This document shows positions 39,248 through 49,672 of a stretch of 64,000 nt of DNA, piece by piece. A program made the position numbers and the translations under genes. The notes beneath the pieces were generated by a model, which was not told the origin of the DNA, made no database searches, and saw nothing but the letters and a program-made list of their open reading frames with translations. The DNA is from Thermoflexus hugenholtzii (lineage in GTDB: Bacteria > Chloroflexota > Anaerolineae > Thermoflexales > Thermoflexaceae). The DNA lies in NCBI RefSeq assembly GCF_018771565.1, contig NZ_CP076326.1, forward strand, positions 2,921,785-2,985,784, given 5' to 3'. Every line of letters begins with the position of its first letter. Position 1 is the stretch's first letter.

Positions 39248-39955
39248 ATGGCACCCTGGGTGGCAGAGATCATCGGCACCATGATCCTCATCCTGCTGGG
39301 CGACGGCGTGGTGGCCAACGTCGTCCTGGGCAAGACCAAGGGCCAGAACTCGGGGTGGATCGTGATCACCACAGGGTGGGCCATGGCGGTGGCCGTGGCC
39401 GTGTATGCGGTGGGCCGCATCAGCGGCGCCCACATCAACCCGGCCGTGACCATCGCCCTCGCCGCGGTCGGCAAGTTCCCCTGGTCGGACGTCCCGCTCT
39501 ACATCGTCGGGCAGTTCATCGGCGCCTTCATCGGCGCGGTGCTCGTGTGGCTGGCTTACTACTCCCACTGGGCGGAGACGCCCGATCCCGCCCTCAAGCG
39601 CGCGGTGTTCTGCACAGCCCCCAACATCCGCAATTACCCCCTGAACTTCATCACCGAGGTCATCGGGACCTTCACGCTGGTCTTCGGGGTCCTGGCCATC
39701 ACCGCTAACAAGCTGGCCGAAGGCTTTGCCCCTCTTCTCGTGGGCTTCTTGGTGTGGTCCATCGGCCTCTCCCTGGGTGGGCCCACGGGCTACGCCATCA
39801 ACCCGGCCCGTGACCTCGGGCCGCGGATCGCCCACGCGGTGCTGCCCATCCCGGGCAAGGGCGACTCCGACTGGGGCTACAGCTGGGTGCCGGTGGTCGG
39901 CCCCATCGTGGGCGGCCTGATCGGCGCCTTCCTCTTCGTCGCCCTGGGGCTGTGA
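39248..39955 (+). CDS. glpF: glycerol uptake facilitator (aquaglyceroporin)
   Basis: 235 residues, six membrane helices and two re-entrant NPA loops: GAHINPAVT and GYAINPARDLGPR. The Asp after the second NPAR is the mark of glycerol-conducting channels rather than water-only aquaporins. First gene of the glycerol/dihydroxyacetone cluster, with AAAGGAG seven bases upstream. Confidence 0.93.
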   Translation: MAPWVAEIIGTMILILLGDGVVANVVLGKTKGQNSGWIVITTGWAMAVAVAVYAVGRISGAHINPAVTIALAAVGKFPWSDVPLYIVGQFIGAFIGAVLVWLAYYSHWAETPDPALKRAVFCTAPNIRNYPLNFITEVIGTFTLVFGVLAITANKLAEGFAPLLVGFLVWSIGLSLGGPTGYAINPARDLGPRIAHAVLPIPGKGDSDWGYSWVPVVGPIVGGLIGAFLFVALGL

Positions 39956-40036: not shown

Positions 40037-41038
40037 ATGAAGAAGCTGATCAACGATCCGATGAATGTGGTCCCGGAGGCCTTGGAGGGGATGGCCAAGG
40101 CCCATCCCGACCTGATCAAGGTGCACTTCAACCCCAACTACGTCTATCGCGCCGACGCGCCCCGGCCGGGGAAGGTGGCGGTGATCTCGGGCGGCGGCAG
40201 CGGCCACGAGCCGATGCATGTGGGCTTCGTCGGCTACGGGATGCTGGACGCTGCCTGCCCCGGCGCCGTGTTCACCTCCCCCACCCCCGACCAGATGTAT
40301 GAGGCGGCCAAGACCGTCCACGGGGGCGCGGGGATCCTGATGATCGTCAAGAACTACGCCGGGGACGTGATGAACTTCGACATGGCGGCGGATCTGCTGC
40401 GAGGCGAGGGCTACCAGGTGGAGAGCGTGCTGATCGCCGACGACGTGGCGGTGGAGAGCAGCCTCTACTCCCAGGGCCGGCGGGGCACCGGCACCACCGT
40501 GCTGGCGGAGAAGATCCTGGGGGCCGCCGCCGAGCGCGGCTACGACCTCCAGCGCCTGGCCGCCCTGGGCCGCCGGGTGGCGGAGAACGGCCGCTCCATG
40601 GGGATGGCCCTCACCTCCTGTATCGTCCCTCACGTGGGCAAGCCCACCTTCGAGCTGGGCGAGGATGAGATGGAGATCGGCATCGGCATCCACGGGGAGC
40701 CCGGCCGCTACCGCGAGCCCCTGAAGAAGGCCGATGAGATCGTCGAGCGGCTGATGGAGCCCATCTTGAAGGACCTCCCCTTCAAGGCCGGCGACCGGGT
40801 GATCTGCATGGTGAACTCCATGGGCGGCACTCCCCTGAGCGAGCTCTACATCGTCTACCGCAAGGTCGCGGAGATCTGTGAGAAGTCCGGCATTCAGATC
40901 GTCCGCAACCTGGTGGGGGCCTACATCACCTCCCTGGAGATGGCCGGGACCTCCATCACCCTGCTCCGGGCCGACGACGAGATGCTGGAGCTGTGGGATC
41001 ACCCGGTCAAGACCCCGGCGCTGCGCTGGGGGATGTAG
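40037..41038 (+). CDS. dhaK: dihydroxyacetone kinase subunit DhaK
   Basis: 333 residues. DhaK binds dihydroxyacetone covalently through a histidine; here GIGIHGEPG. Other signatures: [11 protein letters not shown] near the N-terminus and [15 protein letters not shown]. It is the substrate-binding subunit. The phosphate comes from DhaL, and DhaM is encoded 6 kb downstream, so the kinase is of the PEP/PTS type rather than ATP-dependent. Confidence 0.95.
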
Positions 41039-41120: not shown

Positions 41121-41759
<639 letters not shown>

Positions 41760-41796: not shown

Positions 41797-43311
41797 ATGG
41801 CGAAATATGTGATGGCCATCGATCAGGGAACAACCAGCACCCGGGCCATGATCTTCGATCACGAGAGCAACGTGGTGGCCTGGGACCAGAAGGAGCATGA
41901 GCAGATCTACCCCCAGCCCGGCTGGGTCGAGCACAACCCGATGGAGATCTGGGAGCGCACCCAGGAGGTGGTCAAGAACGCCCTGGCCAAGGCCGGGATC
42001 AGCGGGTCCGACATCGTCGCCATCGGGGTGACCAACCAGCGGGAGACCACCATCGTCTGGAACAAGCGCACCGGCAAGCCGTATTACAACGCCATCGTCT
42101 GGCAGGACACCCGCACTGCCCCCATCTGCGCCCAGCTCCAGCGCGAGGGCTACGAGGCCACGTATCGGGAGAAGACCGGCCTCCCCATCGCCACTTACTT
42201 CTCCGGCCCCAAGATCCAGTGGATCCTGGACAACGTCCCCGGGGTGCGGGAGGACGCGGAGAAGGGGGAGGCCCTCTTCGGCAACATCGACACCTGGTTG
42301 ATCTGGTGGCTGACCGGCGGGCCGGACGGGGGCGCCCACGTCACCGATGTCTCCAACGCCAGCCGGACGATGTTGATGAACCTGCGCACCCTGGACTGGG
42401 ACGATGACATCCTGAAGATCCACCGCATCCCGCGCCAGATGCTCCCCCAGATCCGCCCGTCCTCCGACCCCCGCTTCTATGGGAAGACGCCGAAGAGCGG
42501 GCTGCTCGGGGCCGAGGTGCCGGTCTGCGGGGACCTGGGGGATCAGCAGGCGGCCCTGGTCGGCCAGGCCGGCCTGGACGTCGGGATGGCCAAGAACACC
42601 TACGGCACCGGCTGCTTCCTCCTCCTCAACACCGGCACCAACATCGTCCCCTCCAAGAGCGGCCTGCTCACCACCGTGGCCTATCAATTCGGGGACGGCC
42701 CCTGCATCTACGCCCTGGAAGGCTCCATCGCCATCACCGGCGCCCTGGTCCAGTGGCTGCGGGACAACCTGGGCTTGATCAAGACCTCCGCGGAGGTGGA
42801 GGACCTGGCCCGCACGGTGGAGGACAACGGGGGCATCTACTTCGTGCCCTTCTTCTCCGGCGCCTTCGCCCCCTACTGGCGGCTGGACGCCCGGGGCGTG
42901 ATCGTGGGGCTCACCCGCTACATCAACAAGGGCCACCTGGCCCGCGCCGTCCTGGAGGCCACGGCTTACCAGACCCGGGACGTGTTCGACGCCATGTATG
43001 CGGACTCCGGGATCCGGCTGGCTGAGCTGCGCGTGGACGGGGGGATGGTGCGCAATGAGTTGCTGATGCAGTTCCAGGCCGACATCCTGGGGGTGCCGGT
43101 GGTGCGGCCGGTGATCCAGGAGACCACCTCCCTGGGCGCGGCCTACGCCGCCGGGATGGCCGTGGGCTTCTGGAGCGGCCCGGAGCAGATCCGTCAATAC
43201 TGGAAGGAGGATAAGCGCTGGTTGCCGAAGATGGATCCGGAGACCCGGGAGAAGCTCTACGCCGGATGGAAGAAGGCGGTGGAGCGCTCCTTCGGATGGG
43301 TGGAGTTCTAA
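41797..43311 (+). CDS. glpK: glycerol kinase
   Basis: 504 residues, the usual FGGY-kinase length. Signatures: [15 protein letters not shown] at the N-terminus, NQRETTIVW with the glycerol-binding Arg-Glu, [12 protein letters not shown] in the adenosine site and the C-terminal [18 protein letters not shown]. It makes sn-glycerol 3-phosphate. AAGGAGG lies upstream; it follows dhaL by 37 bp. Confidence 0.96.
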
Positions 43312-43396: not shown

Positions 43397-44563
43397 ATGG
43401 CTTATCACGTGGTGGTGATCGGCGCCGGATCCACCGGGGCGGCCACCGCCCACGACCTGGCCCTCCGGGGCTTCCGGGTGACGGTGGTGGAGCGCGGGGA
43501 AGTGGCCTCCGGGACCTCGGGGCGGAACCACTGTCTGCTCCACTCCGGGGGACGTTACGCCATGAAAGACCCCGAGTCCGCCCGGGAGTGCATCGCGGAG
43601 AACATGATCCTGCGCCGGATCATGCCGGACGCCCTGGAGCTCAACGATGGGCTCTTCGTCGCCCTGGACGAAGGGGATCTCTCCTTCAAGGAGCGGTTCC
43701 TGGCCGCCTGTGAGGAGTGCGGCATCCCGGCCCGGGAGATCCCGGTGCGGCAGGCCCTGGCCCTGGAGCCCCATCTCAACCCCGGCATCCGCGCCGCCGT
43801 TCAGGTCCCCGATGGGGTGTTCGAGCCGTTGCGCTTCTGCCTCTCCTTCCTGGCCACCGCCCGACGCAACGGGGCGACCGTCCTCACCTATACCGAGGTG
43901 GTGGACATGGTCTTCCAGGGTCGGACGGTGGCCGGCGTCAGGGTGCGGGATCGCCGGACCGGTCAGCAGCGGACCATCGGCGCGGACGTGGTGATCAACG
44001 CCGCTGGGCCGTGGGCCGGGAGGATCGCGGCGATGGCCGGGGTGGACGTGCCCGTGGTCCCCACCGCGGGGGTGATGATCTCCGTCGGCCGGCGCTGGAA
44101 CCGCATGGTGATCAACCGCCTGAACCTCCCCGGGGACGGGGACATCATCGTCCCCCAGCGGCGCACGGCCATCATCGGAACCACCTCCTGGAAGGTGGAA
44201 GATCCCGATTTCATCCCGATCCCGGAGGACCACGTCCGCCTGCTCCTGGCGAGCGCCGAACGGTTCATCCCCGGCTACACCCAGGGAGGGATCCGGGGGG
44301 TCTTCGCGGTGGCCCGGCCCCTGGTGGGGCGGCGGGGGGTGGCCGCCGACGGCCGCGAGCTCTCCCGAACCTTCGAGTGCTTCGACCACGCGGCCGACGG
44401 CGTGGAGGGCTTCGTGACCATCACCGGGGGGAAGATGACCACCGCCCGGGCGATGGCCGAGAAGGTCGTCGACGTCGTGTGCGCCAAGCTGGGCCTCTCC
44501 ATCCCATGCCGGACCCATGAGGTGCCGCTGCTCCCCTATCGGGCCTTCTATGAGTTGACCTGA
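43397..44563 (+). CDS. glpA: FAD-dependent glycerol-3-phosphate dehydrogenase, short GlpA type
   Basis: 388 residues. It oxidises glycerol 3-phosphate to dihydroxyacetone phosphate. FAD-binding motif VIGAGSTGAATAHDLALRG, the GlpA-like SGTSGRNHCLLHSGGRYA, and near the end TGGKMTTARAMAEKV. E. coli GlpA is ~540 residues because of a C-terminal BFD-type iron-sulfur domain; here that domain is absent. The next three genes encode a succinate-dehydrogenase-type electron module. AAGGGAGG lies upstream of the ATG. Confidence 0.88.
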   Translation: MAYHVVVIGAGSTGAATAHDLALRGFRVTVVERGEVASGTSGRNHCLLHSGGRYAMKDPESARECIAENMILRRIMPDALELNDGLFVALDEGDLSFKERFLAACEECGIPAREIPVRQALALEPHLNPGIRAAVQVPDGVFEPLRFCLSFLATARRNGATVLTYTEVVDMVFQGRTVAGVRVRDRRTGQQRTIGADVVINAAGPWAGRIAAMAGVDVPVVPTAGVMISVGRRWNRMVINRLNLPGDGDIIVPQRRTAIIGTTSWKVEDPDFIPIPEDHVRLLLASAERFIPGYTQGGIRGVFAVARPLVGRRGVAADGRELSRTFECFDHAADGVEGFVTITGGKMTTARAMAEKVVDVVCAKLGLSIPCRTHEVPLLPYRAFYELT

Positions 44564-44583
44564 TCGCACCGGAGGATACCGGC

Positions 44584-45300
44584 ATGCCCACATGGCAGCT
44601 GCGCCTGCTGCGGGGCCGCCCGGGAAACCCGCCCCGCCTGCAAACGTATCGGGTGGAGCTCCCGGCCGAGGCCTACCTCATCGACGCGGTGGAGAAGATC
44701 TGGGCGGAGCAGGACCGCGACCTGCTCTTCCGCCACGCCTGTCACCACGCCTCGTGCGGGGCGTGCGGGGTCCGGGTGAACGGACGAGAGCGGCTGATGT
44801 GCATCACCCCGCTCCGGGAGTTCGCTCCCGATCGTCCGATTGTCGTTGAGCCGTTGCGGCATTTCCCCTGGCTCGGCGACCTGCTGGTGGACGTGTCGCC
44901 GATGATGCGCCGGATGATGGCGGTGGGCTTCGCCGTCATCCGGCGGGACGAGCTCACGGCCGACCGTCCGCTGCCGGAAGGGGTGGAAAAGGCCACGCGG
45001 TTTGAGGATTGCATCGAGTGCGGCCTGTGCCTCTCGGCGTGCCCGGTGATGGCCGCCGACGAGGCCTATCTGGGGCCGGCGACCCTGGCGGCCATCGAGC
45101 GCATGCTGGCCGAGCCCCGAGGGGCGGACCGCGGACGGCTCCTCGCCCTGGCGGATGACCCCCACGGGGTTTGGCGCTGCCACTCCGCGATGGAGTGCAC
45201 GGCCGTCTGCCCCTCGAACGTAGATCCGGCTGCGGCCATCGGACGGCTGCGTCGCTACCTGTTAGCGGAGAAGCTGCGGCGCTGGCTGGGAGGTGGATGA
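44584..45300 (+). CDS. SdhB/FrdB-type iron-sulfur protein
   Basis: 238 residues, the full succinate dehydrogenase/fumarate reductase iron-sulfur subunit. [2Fe-2S] motif C-x4-C-x2-C-x11-C in CHHASCGACGVRVNG; [4Fe-4S] motif CIECGLCLSACP; [3Fe-4S]-type motif CHSAMECTAVCP. It normally carries electrons from SdhA to quinone. No SdhA is present in the window; its genomic place is taken by the short GlpA, 20 bp upstream. The start of the membrane subunit overlaps its stop as ATGA. Confidence 0.93.
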   Translation: MPTWQLRLLRGRPGNPPRLQTYRVELPAEAYLIDAVEKIWAEQDRDLLFRHACHHASCGACGVRVNGRERLMCITPLREFAPDRPIVVEPLRHFPWLGDLLVDVSPMMRRMMAVGFAVIRRDELTADRPLPEGVEKATRFEDCIECGLCLSACPVMAADEAYLGPATLAAIERMLAEPRGADRGRLLALADDPHGVWRCHSAMECTAVCPSNVDPAAAIGRLRRYLLAEKLRRWLGGG

Positions 45301-45689
45301 TGACGACGGAACCGCGCTGGAAGCGAGCCCGGGGATGGATGGATCTCCGGGGAAGGCGGGAAGGAGGGCTCGCCTTCTTGCTGATGCGGCTGACCGGCAT
45401 CGGCCTGGTGATCTACCTGTTCCTCCATTTGTATGTCCTCCGCCTGCTGGCCCAGGGGCCGGAGGCCTGGGACGCCTTCATCGCCACTGCCAAATCCCCT
45501 CTCTTCCTGATGCTGGACGGGATCCTGATCCTGGGCCTGCTCTACCACGCCTTCAACGGCGTCCGGGTGACGTTGCTGGGGCTGGGGATCGGGGTGCCCC
45601 TCCAGGCCCGTTTGTTCTGGGGGGTGATGGTGTTGACCCTGCTGCTCACCGGGGTGGCGGTCTACGCCATCTTCGCGCTGGCCGGATGA
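45297..45689 (+). CDS. SdhC-type cytochrome b membrane anchor
   Basis: 130 residues, three membrane helices. SdhC-like features: LMRLTGIGLVIYLFLHLYVL with a haem-ligand-type His, and YHAFNGVRVTLLGLG matching the H-x-x-NG-x-R motif of Sdh cytochrome b subunits. It would hold haem b and a quinone site in the membrane together with the next gene. The ATGA overlap with the iron-sulfur gene sets the start. Confidence 0.85.
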   Translation: MMTTEPRWKRARGWMDLRGRREGGLAFLLMRLTGIGLVIYLFLHLYVLRLLAQGPEAWDAFIATAKSPLFLMLDGILILGLLYHAFNGVRVTLLGLGIGVPLQARLFWGVMVLTLLLTGVAVYAIFALAG

Positions 45690-45715
45690 TTTAAGATTGC
45701 GGAAAGAGGCGCGCC

Positions 45716-46045
45716 ATGTGGATCTGGCAGGCGTTCACCGGATTGCTTCTTCTGGTCCTGCTGGCCTTGCACATGATCTTCAATCACTTCGTGGTGGAGG
45801 GCGGTCTGCGCACTTACCGCGATGTGGTGGCCTACCTCTCTCATCCCCTGGTTTTCGCCTGGGAGATCGCGCTGCTGATCGTGGTCACCGCCCACGCGCT
45901 GATGGGGGTGCGGGCCATCCTCCTGGATCTGGGCATCCGCCCGGCGACGGACCGCTGGCTGAAGCGGGGCCTGACGTTGCTGGCGCTGGGGATCATCGGC
46001 TATGGGATGTGGCTCTCATGGCTGATCCGCTCCCGAGGTTTATAG
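45716..46045 (+). CDS. SdhD-type membrane anchor
   Basis: 109 residues with three membrane helices. HAL-x-GVRAILLDLG matches the SdhD H-x-x-GxR-x-x-x-D motif; FNHFVVEGGLRTYRDVVAYL resembles the second conserved region. It completes the SQR-type anchor. The next gene starts within its last 28 bases. Confidence 0.83.
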   Translation: MWIWQAFTGLLLLVLLALHMIFNHFVVEGGLRTYRDVVAYLSHPLVFAWEIALLIVVTAHALMGVRAILLDLGIRPATDRWLKRGLTLLALGIIGYGMWLSWLIRSRGL

Positions 46046-46650
46046 CGCTGGACTGGGAAGCCCTGTGGGCGCCCTATGAGGAGGAGGCCTACCGCAGGAT
46101 CCTGGAGCGCCTCCGGCCCGGGGAGCGCGTGTTGGAGATCGGCGCCGGGGATCTGCGGCTGGCCCTGCGGATGGTCGAGGCGGGGGTCGGGGTGATCGCG
46201 GTGGAGCGCCAGTGGGCGGTGCTGGCCCGAGGGCTGCAGGCCCTGGGCCTCTCCCCGGGCATCTTGCGCTGGGAGCGGCCGATCCCGCTCCGGGAGGGAC
46301 GCCTGCTTGTGGTCTGGGCCGACGCGCGGACCTGGCCCTTTCCCCCGGTGGACACCGCGGTGCTGTTGATGCGACACTGCGCCTCGTTCCCGTTCTACAT
46401 CCGCAAGCTCCAGGCCGCGGGTTGCCGCCGGCTGTTCACCAACGCCCGCTGGCGCATGGGCGTGGAGGAGATCGATCTGGGGCCCGCCCGATCCTTTGAA
46501 GAGATCTCCCCGGGCTGGTATGCTTGCCGATGCGGCGCCGTCGGCTTCCGGGAGGGCCCCCCTGAGGCCATCGACGCGGCGGCCCTGGAGCGGGTATGGG
46601 AGGTGGAAACGTGCCCGGCCTGCCAGCCGCTCACTGTTGAAGGGGCCTGA
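46018..46650 (+). CDS. SAM-methyltransferase-fold protein with zinc-ribbon-like tail
   Basis: 210 residues. The N-terminal half shows a SAM motif I (RVLEIGAGDLRLALRM) and a following acidic strand (VIAVERQ), resembling rRNA adenine-dimethylase-type enzymes, but the usual catalytic NPPY is absent. The C-terminal quarter has CRCG and CPAC pairs that could bind zinc. Function unknown. It overlaps the SdhD-type gene by 28 bp, so it belongs to the operon. The ATG at 46018 gives this length; longer frames overlap the anchor genes completely. Confidence 0.7.
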   Translation: MADPLPRFIALDWEALWAPYEEEAYRRILERLRPGERVLEIGAGDLRLALRMVEAGVGVIAVERQWAVLARGLQALGLSPGILRWERPIPLREGRLLVVWADARTWPFPPVDTAVLLMRHCASFPFYIRKLQAAGCRRLFTNARWRMGVEEIDLGPARSFEEISPGWYACRCGAVGFREGPPEAIDAAALERVWEVETCPACQPLTVEGA

Positions 46651-47255: not shown

Positions 47256-47657
47256 ATGGTTGCCCTGGTGATCGTGGCCCACAGCGCCAAGCTGGCGGAG
47301 GGGGTGAAGGAATTGGCGGACCAGATGGTCCAGGGCCGTGTCCCCATTTTCGCCGCGGGCGGCCTGGACGCCCACACCCTGGGCACCAACGTCGAGCGGA
47401 TCCGCGAGGCTCTGGAGGCCGCCCTCTCCCGGGCGGATGAGGTGCTGGTCCTGATGGATCTGGGGAGCGCGGTGATGGGGACGCAGATGGCCGTGGAGAT
47501 GCTTCCCCCCGAGGTCCGCCCGCGCATCCTCCTCAGCCAGGCGCCGCTGGTCGAAGGCGCCATCGTCGCCGCCGTGGAGGCCGCCATCGGAAAGGGGGCG
47601 ACGGAGGTGGAAGCCTCGGCAGTGGAGGCTTGTCGGATGCCTAAGGTGATCCGTTGA
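47256..47657 (+). CDS. dhaM: PTS EIIA-type subunit DhaM of dihydroxyacetone kinase
   Basis: 133 residues, only the EIIA(Man)-like domain. The phospho-accepting histidine is in IVAHSAKLAEG; VLMDLGSAVMGTQMAVEML is the other signature. In E. coli DhaM is fused to HPr and an EI-like piece; here those are separate genes directly downstream. DhaM takes phosphate from HPr and recharges ADP on DhaL. Confidence 0.93.
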   Translation: MVALVIVAHSAKLAEGVKELADQMVQGRVPIFAAGGLDAHTLGTNVERIREALEAALSRADEVLVLMDLGSAVMGTQMAVEMLPPEVRPRILLSQAPLVEGAIVAAVEAAIGKGATEVEASAVEACRMPKVIR

Positions 47658-47684
47658 GGAGATCCCACGGAGGTCCGGAGGCGG

Positions 47685-47966
47685 ATGCGGCAGGTGACGC
47701 TCACGCTCACCAACGCGGTCGGGTTACACGCGCGGCCGGCAGCGGTGTTCGTCCAGACGGCCGCGCGCTTTCGTTCGAACATCACGGTGCGGAACCTCAC
47801 CCGGGGAACCCCACCGGTGAACGCCAAGGCGATCCTGGCGGTGCTCACCCTGGGGGCGGAGCACGGCCACGAGATCGAGATCGTCGCCGAAGGGCCGGAT
47901 GAGGAGGAGGCCATCGCGGCCCTCCAGGCCCTGGTGGAGTCGCGGTTCGGGGAGGATGGGGGATGA
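47685..47966 (+). CDS. ptsH: phosphocarrier protein HPr
   Basis: 93 residues. The His15 site is GLHARPAA. The region of the regulatory Ser46 reads VNAKAILAVLTLG, with Ala in place of serine, so regulation by an HPr kinase seems unlikely. A short acidic C-terminal tail is extra. It accepts phosphate from Enzyme I and gives it to DhaM. The EI gene starts inside its stop codon. Confidence 0.93.
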   Translation: MRQVTLTLTNAVGLHARPAAVFVQTAARFRSNITVRNLTRGTPPVNAKAILAVLTLGAEHGHEIEIVAEGPDEEEAIAALQALVESRFGEDGG

Positions 47967-49672
47967 GCCGCCGCCTGCAGGGTCTTCCGGCCTCCCCTGG
48001 GGTCGCCCTCGGCCCTGCCTGGTGGTTCCGGCGGGCCGAGCGGGGCCCGCTGCGGGCACGAGGGGAGGATCCCGCAGTGGAGCGGACGCGGCTGGAGGCT
48101 GCCCGGCAGCAAGCCGCCGCCGAGCTGGCGGCGCTGCAGGAAGCGAACCGTGATCGTCTGTCTCCGGAGGAGCTGGCCATCTTCGAGGCCCAGACCCTGA
48201 TGCTCCAGGATCCGGAGCTCCTGGCCCAGGTGGAGGCGGCGCTGGCCGAGGGGGCTTCCGCCGAGGCCGCATGGAGCCAGGCGGTGGAAGCTTTCGCCGC
48301 CCGGCTGGCGGCGTTGCCGGACCCCTACTTCCAGGCCCGGGCGGCGGATGTGCGGGATGTGGGGAACCGGGTGCTCCGCCATTTGATGGGCGCTCCGGAG
48401 GAGCCGGCCATGCCGGCCCACCCGGTGATCGTTGTCGCCGACGACCTGCTGCCCTCCGAAACGGTTCGTCTGGATCCCCAGCGGGTGCTGGCGTTCGTGA
48501 CCGAGGGGGGCGGGCCGACGGCCCACGCCGCTATCCTCGCCCGCCGGCTCGGGGTGCCCGCCGTGGTGGCGGTGGGATCGGCGCTCCGAGCCGTCCCCGA
48601 CGGCGCGACGCTCCTGGTGGATGGCGAGGCGGGCTGGGTGGAGATCGAGCCCGCCCCGGAAGTGATCCGCCAGGCCCAGGCGCGACAGGCCCGCTGGCAG
48701 GCGGAGCGGGCGCAGGCGGAGGCCGCCGCCCACGAGCCGGCGCTCACCCGCGACGGGGTCCGGATTGAGGTGGCGGCCAACGTCGGGAGCCTGGAGGACG
48801 CCCGGGAGGCTTTCCGAAGGGGAGCGGATGCCATCGGCCTGCTGCGCACGGAGTTCCTCTATCTCGAGCGGACGGCCGCTCCTACCGAGGAGGAAGAGGT
48901 CGCCGCTTACCGGGCGCTCCTGGAGGCCATGGGGGGGAAGCCGGTGGTGGTGCGCACCCTGGACGTCGGGGGGGACAAGCCGCTGCCTTATCTCCCGATG
49001 CCCTCCGAGCCCAATCCCTTCCTGGGAGTGCGAGGCGTGCGGCTTTCGCGCCAGCATCCGGATTTGCTTCGCCGGCAGCTCCGGGCGCTGCTGCGGGCCG
49101 GCGCGGGCTTCCCCCTTCGCATCATGTTCCCGATGGTCAGCACCGTGGAGGAGATCCGCTGGCTCCGGGCGCTTCTGGACGAGGTGCGCGCCGCTCTGGC
49201 GCGGGAGGGCGTCCCCCTGCCGGAGGACCTGCAGGTGGGGATGATGGTGGAGGTGCCCGCGGCGGCGTTGCTGGCGGAGCACTTCCGGCCCTGGGTGGAT
49301 TTTTTCAGCATCGGGACCAACGATCTCACCCAGTATGTGCTGGCGGCGGATCGGACCAACCCGGCGGTGGCCGGGATGGCGGACGGCCTGCATCCGGCGG
49401 TGCTGCGCCTGATCCGCCAGGTGACGGCCGCCGCGGAGGGGACCGGGAAGTGGGTGGGGGTCTGCGGGGAGCTGGCCGGCGACCTCCAGGCGGTGCCCGT
49501 GCTGATCGGCCTGGGGGTCCGGGAGCTCAGCGTGAACCCCGTGCGCGTGCCGGAGGTCAAAGCCGTCGTCCGTCGCTGGTCCCTGCAGGAGGCTCAGGCC
49601 CTGGCCGAGGCCGCCCTGGCGCAGGAGGACGCCCCTGCGGTCCGCCGTCTGGTCCAGGAGGCCTCCGCCTGA
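47963..49672 (+). CDS. ptsI: phosphoenolpyruvate-protein phosphotransferase (Enzyme I)
   Basis: 569 residues, full length. The phosphohistidine is in GGGPTAHAAILARRLG; DVGGDKPLPYL, GMMVEVPAAALLAEHF and IGTNDLTQYVLAADR mark the PEP-binding barrel. It takes phosphate from PEP and passes it to HPr. No sugar permease (EII) is in the window, so this chain may serve only DhaKLM. It is the last gene of the cluster. Confidence 0.95.
   Translation: MSRRLQGLPASPGVALGPAWWFRRAERGPLRARGEDPAVERTRLEAARQQAAAELAALQEANRDRLSPEELAIFEAQTLMLQDPELLAQVEAALAEGASAEAAWSQAVEAFAARLAALPDPYFQARAADVRDVGNRVLRHLMGAPEEPAMPAHPVIVVADDLLPSETVRLDPQRVLAFVTEGGGPTAHAAILARRLGVPAVVAVGSALRAVPDGATLLVDGEAGWVEIEPAPEVIRQAQARQARWQAERAQAEAAAHEPALTRDGVRIEVAANVGSLEDAREAFRRGADAIGLLRTEFLYLERTAAPTEEEEVAAYRALLEAMGGKPVVVRTLDVGGDKPLPYLPMPSEPNPFLGVRGVRLSRQHPDLLRRQLRALLRAGAGFPLRIMFPMVSTVEEIRWLRALLDEVRAALAREGVPLPEDLQVGMMVEVPAAALLAEHFRPWVDFFSIGTNDLTQYVLAADRTNPAVAGMADGLHPAVLRLIRQVTAAAEGTGKWVGVCGELAGDLQAVPVLIGLGVRELSVNPVRVPEVKAVVRRWSLQEAQALAEAALAQEDAPAVRRLVQEASA

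Follow-up and report, generated by a model that had tools for sequence, protein, structure and literature searches.

The glycerol gene cluster of Thermoflexus hugenholtzii

The window, that is, the whole stretch of DNA analysed here, comprises 64,000 nucleotides of contig NZ_CP076326.1 of the hot-spring bacterium T. hugenholtzii, whose genome is assembled as one contig (3.32 Mb, 98.6% complete). A single strand of the window carries, in order, genes for GlpF, DhaK, DhaL, GlpK, GlpA, SdhB, SdhC, SdhD, DhaM, an HPr-like ORF and PtsI (positions are those of the window):

39248..39955, + strand: glpF-type MIP channel (TIGR00861, 213 bits)
40037..41038, + strand: dhaK, dihydroxyacetone kinase subunit (TIGR02363, 491 bits)
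41121..41759, + strand: dhaL, dihydroxyacetone kinase subunit (TIGR02365, 258 bits)
41797..43311, + strand: glpK, glycerol kinase, upstream of glpA (TIGR01311, 742 bits)
43397..44563, + strand: glpA, short FAD-dependent glycerol-3-phosphate dehydrogenase, 388 residues (TIGR03377, 456 bits; PF01266 without PF04324)
44584..45300, + strand: sdhB-type iron-sulfur subunit, 238 residues (TIGR00384, 179 bits, cut-off 88; invariant cysteines; clade support 100/100)
45300..45689, + strand: sdhC-type membrane anchor (TIGR02970, 55.5 bits, cut-off 52.3)
45716..46045, + strand: sdhD-type membrane anchor (PF01127, 37.8 bits, cut-off 25.8)
47256..47657, + strand: dhaM, phosphoryl donor subunit (TIGR02364, 131 bits)
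47963..49672, + strand: ptsI, PEP-dependent enzyme I (TIGR01417, 553 bits)

Twenty base pairs separate glpA from sdhB, the sdhB stop codon overlaps the start of sdhC, and 26 bp separate sdhC from sdhD; the gap between sdhD and dhaM is 1.2 kb and contains two other ORFs. No SdhA gene was found in the neighborhood of GlpA-SdhBCD in the window. An earlier note on this DNA had read the segment as a short glpA and, after it, genes of the SdhB, SdhC and SdhD types, SdhA being absent; all four genes lie where it had put them, and profile searches confirm their families.

The start of a 210-residue ORF with no Pfam match (46018-46650) overlaps the last 28 bp of sdhD, and the transcript may therefore continue past sdhD. 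Further downstream, DhaM, the HPr-like ORF (47685-47966) and enzyme I constitute a small PEP-phosphotransfer cassette (47256-49672), which accompanies the module in many relatives.

The flavoprotein subunit

GlpA of the window is a DAO fold only (PF01266). It matches TIGR03377 over profile positions 1-378 of 530, and its score falls below the equivalog cut-off of 552.8 because the C-terminal domain is absent. (In E. coli GlpA, residues 432-484 match the BFD-like [2Fe-2S] family PF04324, which is absent from the window protein and from the GlpAs of two isolates.) The catalytic domain is homologous: E. coli GlpA and the related short GlpAs are 41-44% identical. An AlphaFold (AF2) model built from 15 homologues has a pLDDT of 88, and its top PDB matches include GlpD and glycerophosphate oxidase (GlpO), so that, judged by its model, GlpA has the appearance of an intact DAO-fold enzyme and not of a damaged one. 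Residues R307, R324 and K346, which we take to correspond to the phosphate-binding positions of GlpD, are unchanged in the 15 homologues.

The C-terminus of most short GlpAs is a conserved tail, L-x-x-[YH]-x-x-[YF]-[YF] (window ~44520-44560), at the point where canonical GlpA enters its iron-sulfur domain. This is a possible docking tail.

The iron-sulfur subunit and membrane anchors

The cysteines for three clusters in the SdhB-type protein (C53/58/61/73, C143/146/149/153 and C199/205/209) are invariant in 15 diverse homologues. Its match to the GlpC profile TIGR03379 is only 21.7 bits, with a cut-off of 279.9. In a tree of 119 SdhB sequences, one branch with support 100/100 splits 86 GlpA-linked SdhBs, together with seven orphans of family f3 (described below), from 25 SdhA-linked SdhBs, the latter including E. 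coli SdhB and the complex II SdhB of T. hugenholtzii itself. E145 is a signature of the GlpA-linked group (86 of 86, vs 0 of 25 SdhA-linked proteins); S/T57 is found in 85 and H51 in 81 of the 86. A switch of partner through changes at the interface alone is not supported, since the two groups also diverge outside the domain that should face the flavoprotein (Jensen-Shannon divergence 0.30 in the N-domain and 0.42 in the C-domain).

Evolutionary distances of GlpA and SdhB are correlated (mirror-tree r = 0.80), but other genes of the cluster give similar values, and the correlation is therefore not a specific sign of contact. For SdhB, AlphaFold gave a poor model (pTM 0.55) that contributes little. 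Among the matches listed in a plasmid search with SdhB, all are below 40% identity and most are annotated as succinate dehydrogenase; a scan of viral contigs yielded no relatives.

Histidines of the anchors are strictly conserved: His43 and His83 of SdhC in 71 of 71 sequences; His19, His24 and His60 of SdhD in 66 of 66. In the alignments, SdhC His83 corresponds to His84 of E. coli SdhC, and SdhD His60 to His71 of E. coli SdhD, the two E. coli residues being, as we take it, the haem ligands; the E. coli counterparts of SdhC His43 and of SdhD His19 and His24 are not histidine. Wolinella FrdC is a di-haem anchor. By analogy with such anchors, the invariant histidines make it likely that the SdhC/SdhD pair binds two b haems.

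Other dehydrogenases of the same genome

A complete SdhC-SdhD-SdhA-SdhB set is located elsewhere in the T. hugenholtzii genome (SdhC at 1602296, SdhD at 1602716, SdhA at 1603557 with 797 bits, SdhB at 1606133), making the SdhBCD of the window a second, separate set. The earlier note had proposed searching the genome for sdhA and another sdhB/sdhC/sdhD set, and had reasoned that a lone sdhA lacking iron-sulfur and anchor genes of its own would assign the window genes to ordinary complex II; the SdhA of this genome has its own SdhC, SdhD and SdhB. A search with TIGR03378 found no GlpB in the genome. A second glycerol-3-phosphate dehydrogenase, GlpD-like and 518 residues long, is encoded away from the window.

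The genes of the ordinary complex II are interspersed with others (1603103-1606118 of the contig), as read by eye: sdhD and sdhA flank a retropepsin-like ORF, and the ORFs that separate sdhA from sdhB are HEPN-like and nucleotidyltransferase-like.

Recurrence of the module

Two partly overlapping surveys address the distribution of the module. In the first, the window SdhB was compared with 400 Chloroflexota genomes. Matches at E ≤ 1.6e-57 occur in 20 genomes of 10 families, and 16 of the 20 loci examined (nine families) have GlpA directly upstream and SdhC and SdhD downstream; one of the remaining four is cut by a contig end and three belong to family f3. The following ten matches (E from 3e-46 up) all adjoin SdhA and none adjoins GlpA. 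In the second, 84,980 species genomes were scanned with an SdhB profile, and 80 of the 225 relatives obtained were kept. In 72 of these 80 loci, retrieved by their SdhB, GlpA is the neighbor; SdhA does not occur within 5 kb in any of them. The full set of four genes is found in 67, several others being cut by contig ends, and the four-gene association is thus recurrent far beyond chance.

The GlpA-SdhB-SdhC-SdhD order accordingly extends to at least nine Chloroflexota families, and the recurrence without SdhA that the earlier note had suggested looking for is found. Cultured carriers include Levilinea saccharolytica, Thermanaerothrix daxensis and Leptolinea tardivitalis. Glycerol kinase accompanies the module in 55 of the 67 complete loci; dhaK/L/M and ptsI are often there as well. 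The GlpB profile TIGR03378 scores above its cut-off in one of 20 genomes (G159), beside a separate full-length GlpA. This Dormibacterota-type genome carries a full-length GlpA-GlpB-GlpC locus together with a short GlpA-SdhBCD locus (L194, L215). A whole glycerol cluster with GlpA-SdhBCD is also found on a 61-kb contig of a Bacillota MAG (ZC3RG07; L066). SdhB matches in 13 other genomes of its order score in the canonical range only, and the contig is therefore likely to be misbinned or transferred.

Genomes without SdhA and genomes with a separated SdhB

Leptolinea tardivitalis YMTK-2 has the module, a single SdhB (the GlpA-linked one) and a single match to the GlpA profile; a search of this draft genome with the SdhA profile did not find SdhA. 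(The sole match scores 335 bits and belongs to a NadB-like gene with nadA- and nadC-like neighbors, all named by reading the sequences.) A Leptolinea MAG presents the same pattern by profile matches, the NadB-like identification covering YMTK-2 only, and in two further draft MAGs (G409, G424) nothing matches the SdhA profile. Since these genomes are drafts, any single absence could be a gap. Leptolinea also encodes UbiA-family prenyltransferases, which are compatible with quinone synthesis, though not assigned to menaquinone.

In genomes of the f3 type (L024, L026, L028, L052-L054, L103) the GlpA-type SdhB lies apart from GlpA, and those that were searched retain a short GlpA elsewhere. GlpA-type SdhC and SdhD were not found in f3 genomes; the anchors present score in the canonical complex II range only. 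Retention of both GlpA and GlpA-type SdhB after their separation supports a functional tie between them. The four-subunit form is not obligatory, since in f3 the GlpA-type SdhB persists unlinked from GlpA and without its own SdhC and SdhD. In one f3-type locus (L103) SdhB is still located between glpK and dhaL.

A probable glycerol-3-phosphate:quinone oxidoreductase

We consider it highly probable that the products of the four genes form a single membrane-bound enzyme that passes electrons from glycerol-3-phosphate to quinone, most likely menaquinone, and in which GlpA re-uses the electron wire and membrane anchor of complex II. The short GlpA would oxidize glycerol-3-phosphate to dihydroxyacetone phosphate on FAD, and the SdhB-type subunit, with its predicted [2Fe-2S], [4Fe-4S] and [3Fe-4S] clusters, would pass the electrons on. 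Anchoring of the complex would fall to the SdhC/SdhD pair, probably with two b haems, and quinone would be reduced beside the [3Fe-4S] cluster. GlpA-SdhBCD would then be the respiratory step of a glycerol pathway comprising GlpF, GlpK, GlpA-SdhBCD and DhaKLM. The earlier note's proposal of such a hybrid enzyme holds up in the genomic tests (a separate succinate dehydrogenase, recurrence without SdhA, genomes lacking SdhA). Its remark that the pairing had no described example does not: GlpA-SdhBCD had already been proposed for Thermofilum pendens (PMC11962113).

That the SdhB, SdhC and SdhD of the window are clear members of complex II families could also mean that they belong to ordinary complex II and are used by an SdhA from elsewhere, the proximity of GlpA being incidental. 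This reading was rejected in the main by the searches of the T. hugenholtzii genome for SdhA, SdhB, SdhC and SdhD, which already has a complete SdhCDAB; the separate clade of GlpA-linked SdhBs and the lack of SdhA in Leptolinea, in two MAGs and near all 80 loci also speak against it, and we regard it as extremely unlikely. It is very unlikely, too, that the flavoprotein attached to SdhBCD is a DAO-family dehydrogenase whose substrate is not glycerol-3-phosphate. The DAO superfamily is broad and the score is below the equivalog cut-off, but GlpA is by far the best-matching family, glpK is near most complete loci, often with dhaKLM, and the putative phosphate-binding residues are invariant. Moreover, the GlpA profile picks up GlpD-like proteins as well, and in Leptolinea it matches this protein alone.

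The direction of the reaction merits separate consideration. Levilinea and Leptolinea are cultured fermentative anaerobes, and Leptolinea is without complex II; in fermenting Anaerolineae the complex might run mainly in reverse, quinol reducing dihydroxyacetone phosphate to glycerol-3-phosphate for lipids. On the other hand, the neighbors of the module (glpF, glpK, dhaKLM) are catabolic, electron flow from glycerol-3-phosphate to menaquinone is downhill (about -190 mV to -74 mV), and the UbiA-family prenyltransferases of Leptolinea are compatible with quinone synthesis. Operation chiefly in reverse is very unlikely.

The origin of the proposed oxidoreductase is a more tentative matter. It is possible, though on balance doubtful, that an independent swap of partners took place in Chloroflexota, SdhBCD (with two b haems) having been captured by GlpA more than once, and that f3 later lost the anchor, its GlpA-SdhB docking on the anchor used by ordinary complex II, or functioning with none. 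If this were so, SdhBCD of complex II would be a plug-in, quinone-reducing chassis.

In the usual account, complex II has a single flavoprotein and a wire and anchor dedicated to it. Much of Chloroflexota appears to drive a flavoprotein of another family through the wire and anchor of complex II, in replacement of GlpB and GlpC. Annotation and metabolic models will be misled by such genes, which look like orphan "succinate dehydrogenase" genes where SdhA is absent, as in Leptolinea. With a complex from thermophiles, the choice of partners in respiratory complexes becomes testable.

Comparison with known systems

The GlpA-SdhBCD kind of complex has been named once before, for an archaeon and from gene order. 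Archaea related to Thermofilum carry genes for counterparts of SdhB, SdhC and SdhD after glpA, and a GlpA-SdhBCD complex has been named and drawn for T. pendens on this basis (Schmerling et al. 2025, PMC11962113, Fig. 9b). We did not find the phrase outside that paper, a description of GlpA-SdhBCD in Bacteria, or biochemistry of the Chloroflexota or archaeal form in the literature searched; subscription papers were mostly beyond the search, and an earlier bacterial report is therefore possible. In the passages found, the paper on the T. hugenholtzii genome refers to succinate dehydrogenase and to menaquinone, and not to the module. Canonical glpA in Bacteria has been stated to co-occur consistently with glpB and glpC (PMC11962113). 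A wide bacterial GlpA-SdhBCD clade is new to that picture and limits the statement. What appears to be new is thus a large bacterial clade in which phylogeny, gene loss and genome content indicate that SdhBCD serves GlpA and not SdhA.

The T. pendens arrangement (a GlpA gene, then counterparts of sdhB, sdhC and sdhD, and no sdhA) is found in the window and in 67 of the 80 loci of the second survey, and a single membrane complex is proposed here as it was for T. pendens (PMC11962113). The T. pendens system is archaeal and its assignment comes from gene order and a GlpA tree, whereas the Chloroflexota module is bacterial, is spread over at least nine families, lies in a glp-dha-PTS cluster and is backed by SdhB phylogeny and gene-loss evidence. 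In Sulfolobus acidocaldarius, too, GlpA is truncated and its membrane partner is not GlpBC; the partner there, CoxG, is reported to be an anchor outside electron transfer (PMC11962113), in place of the predicted three-cluster redox subunit and haem-type anchors of Thermoflexus.

With GlpABC, the anaerobic glycerol-3-phosphate dehydrogenase of E. coli, the module shares a homologous catalytic domain and the same proposed, menaquinone-linked reaction. The Thermoflexus GlpA differs in being without the BFD [2Fe-2S] domain, its genome is without GlpB, and SdhB, SdhC and SdhD take the place of GlpB and GlpC. With complex II (SdhABCD/FrdABCD) it shares a homologous three-cluster iron-sulfur subunit and homologous anchors with haem-ligand histidines (the haem being predicted here). 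In contrast to complex II, SdhA is replaced by a DAO-family flavoprotein, and SdhB falls into a clade of its own with distinct conserved residues.
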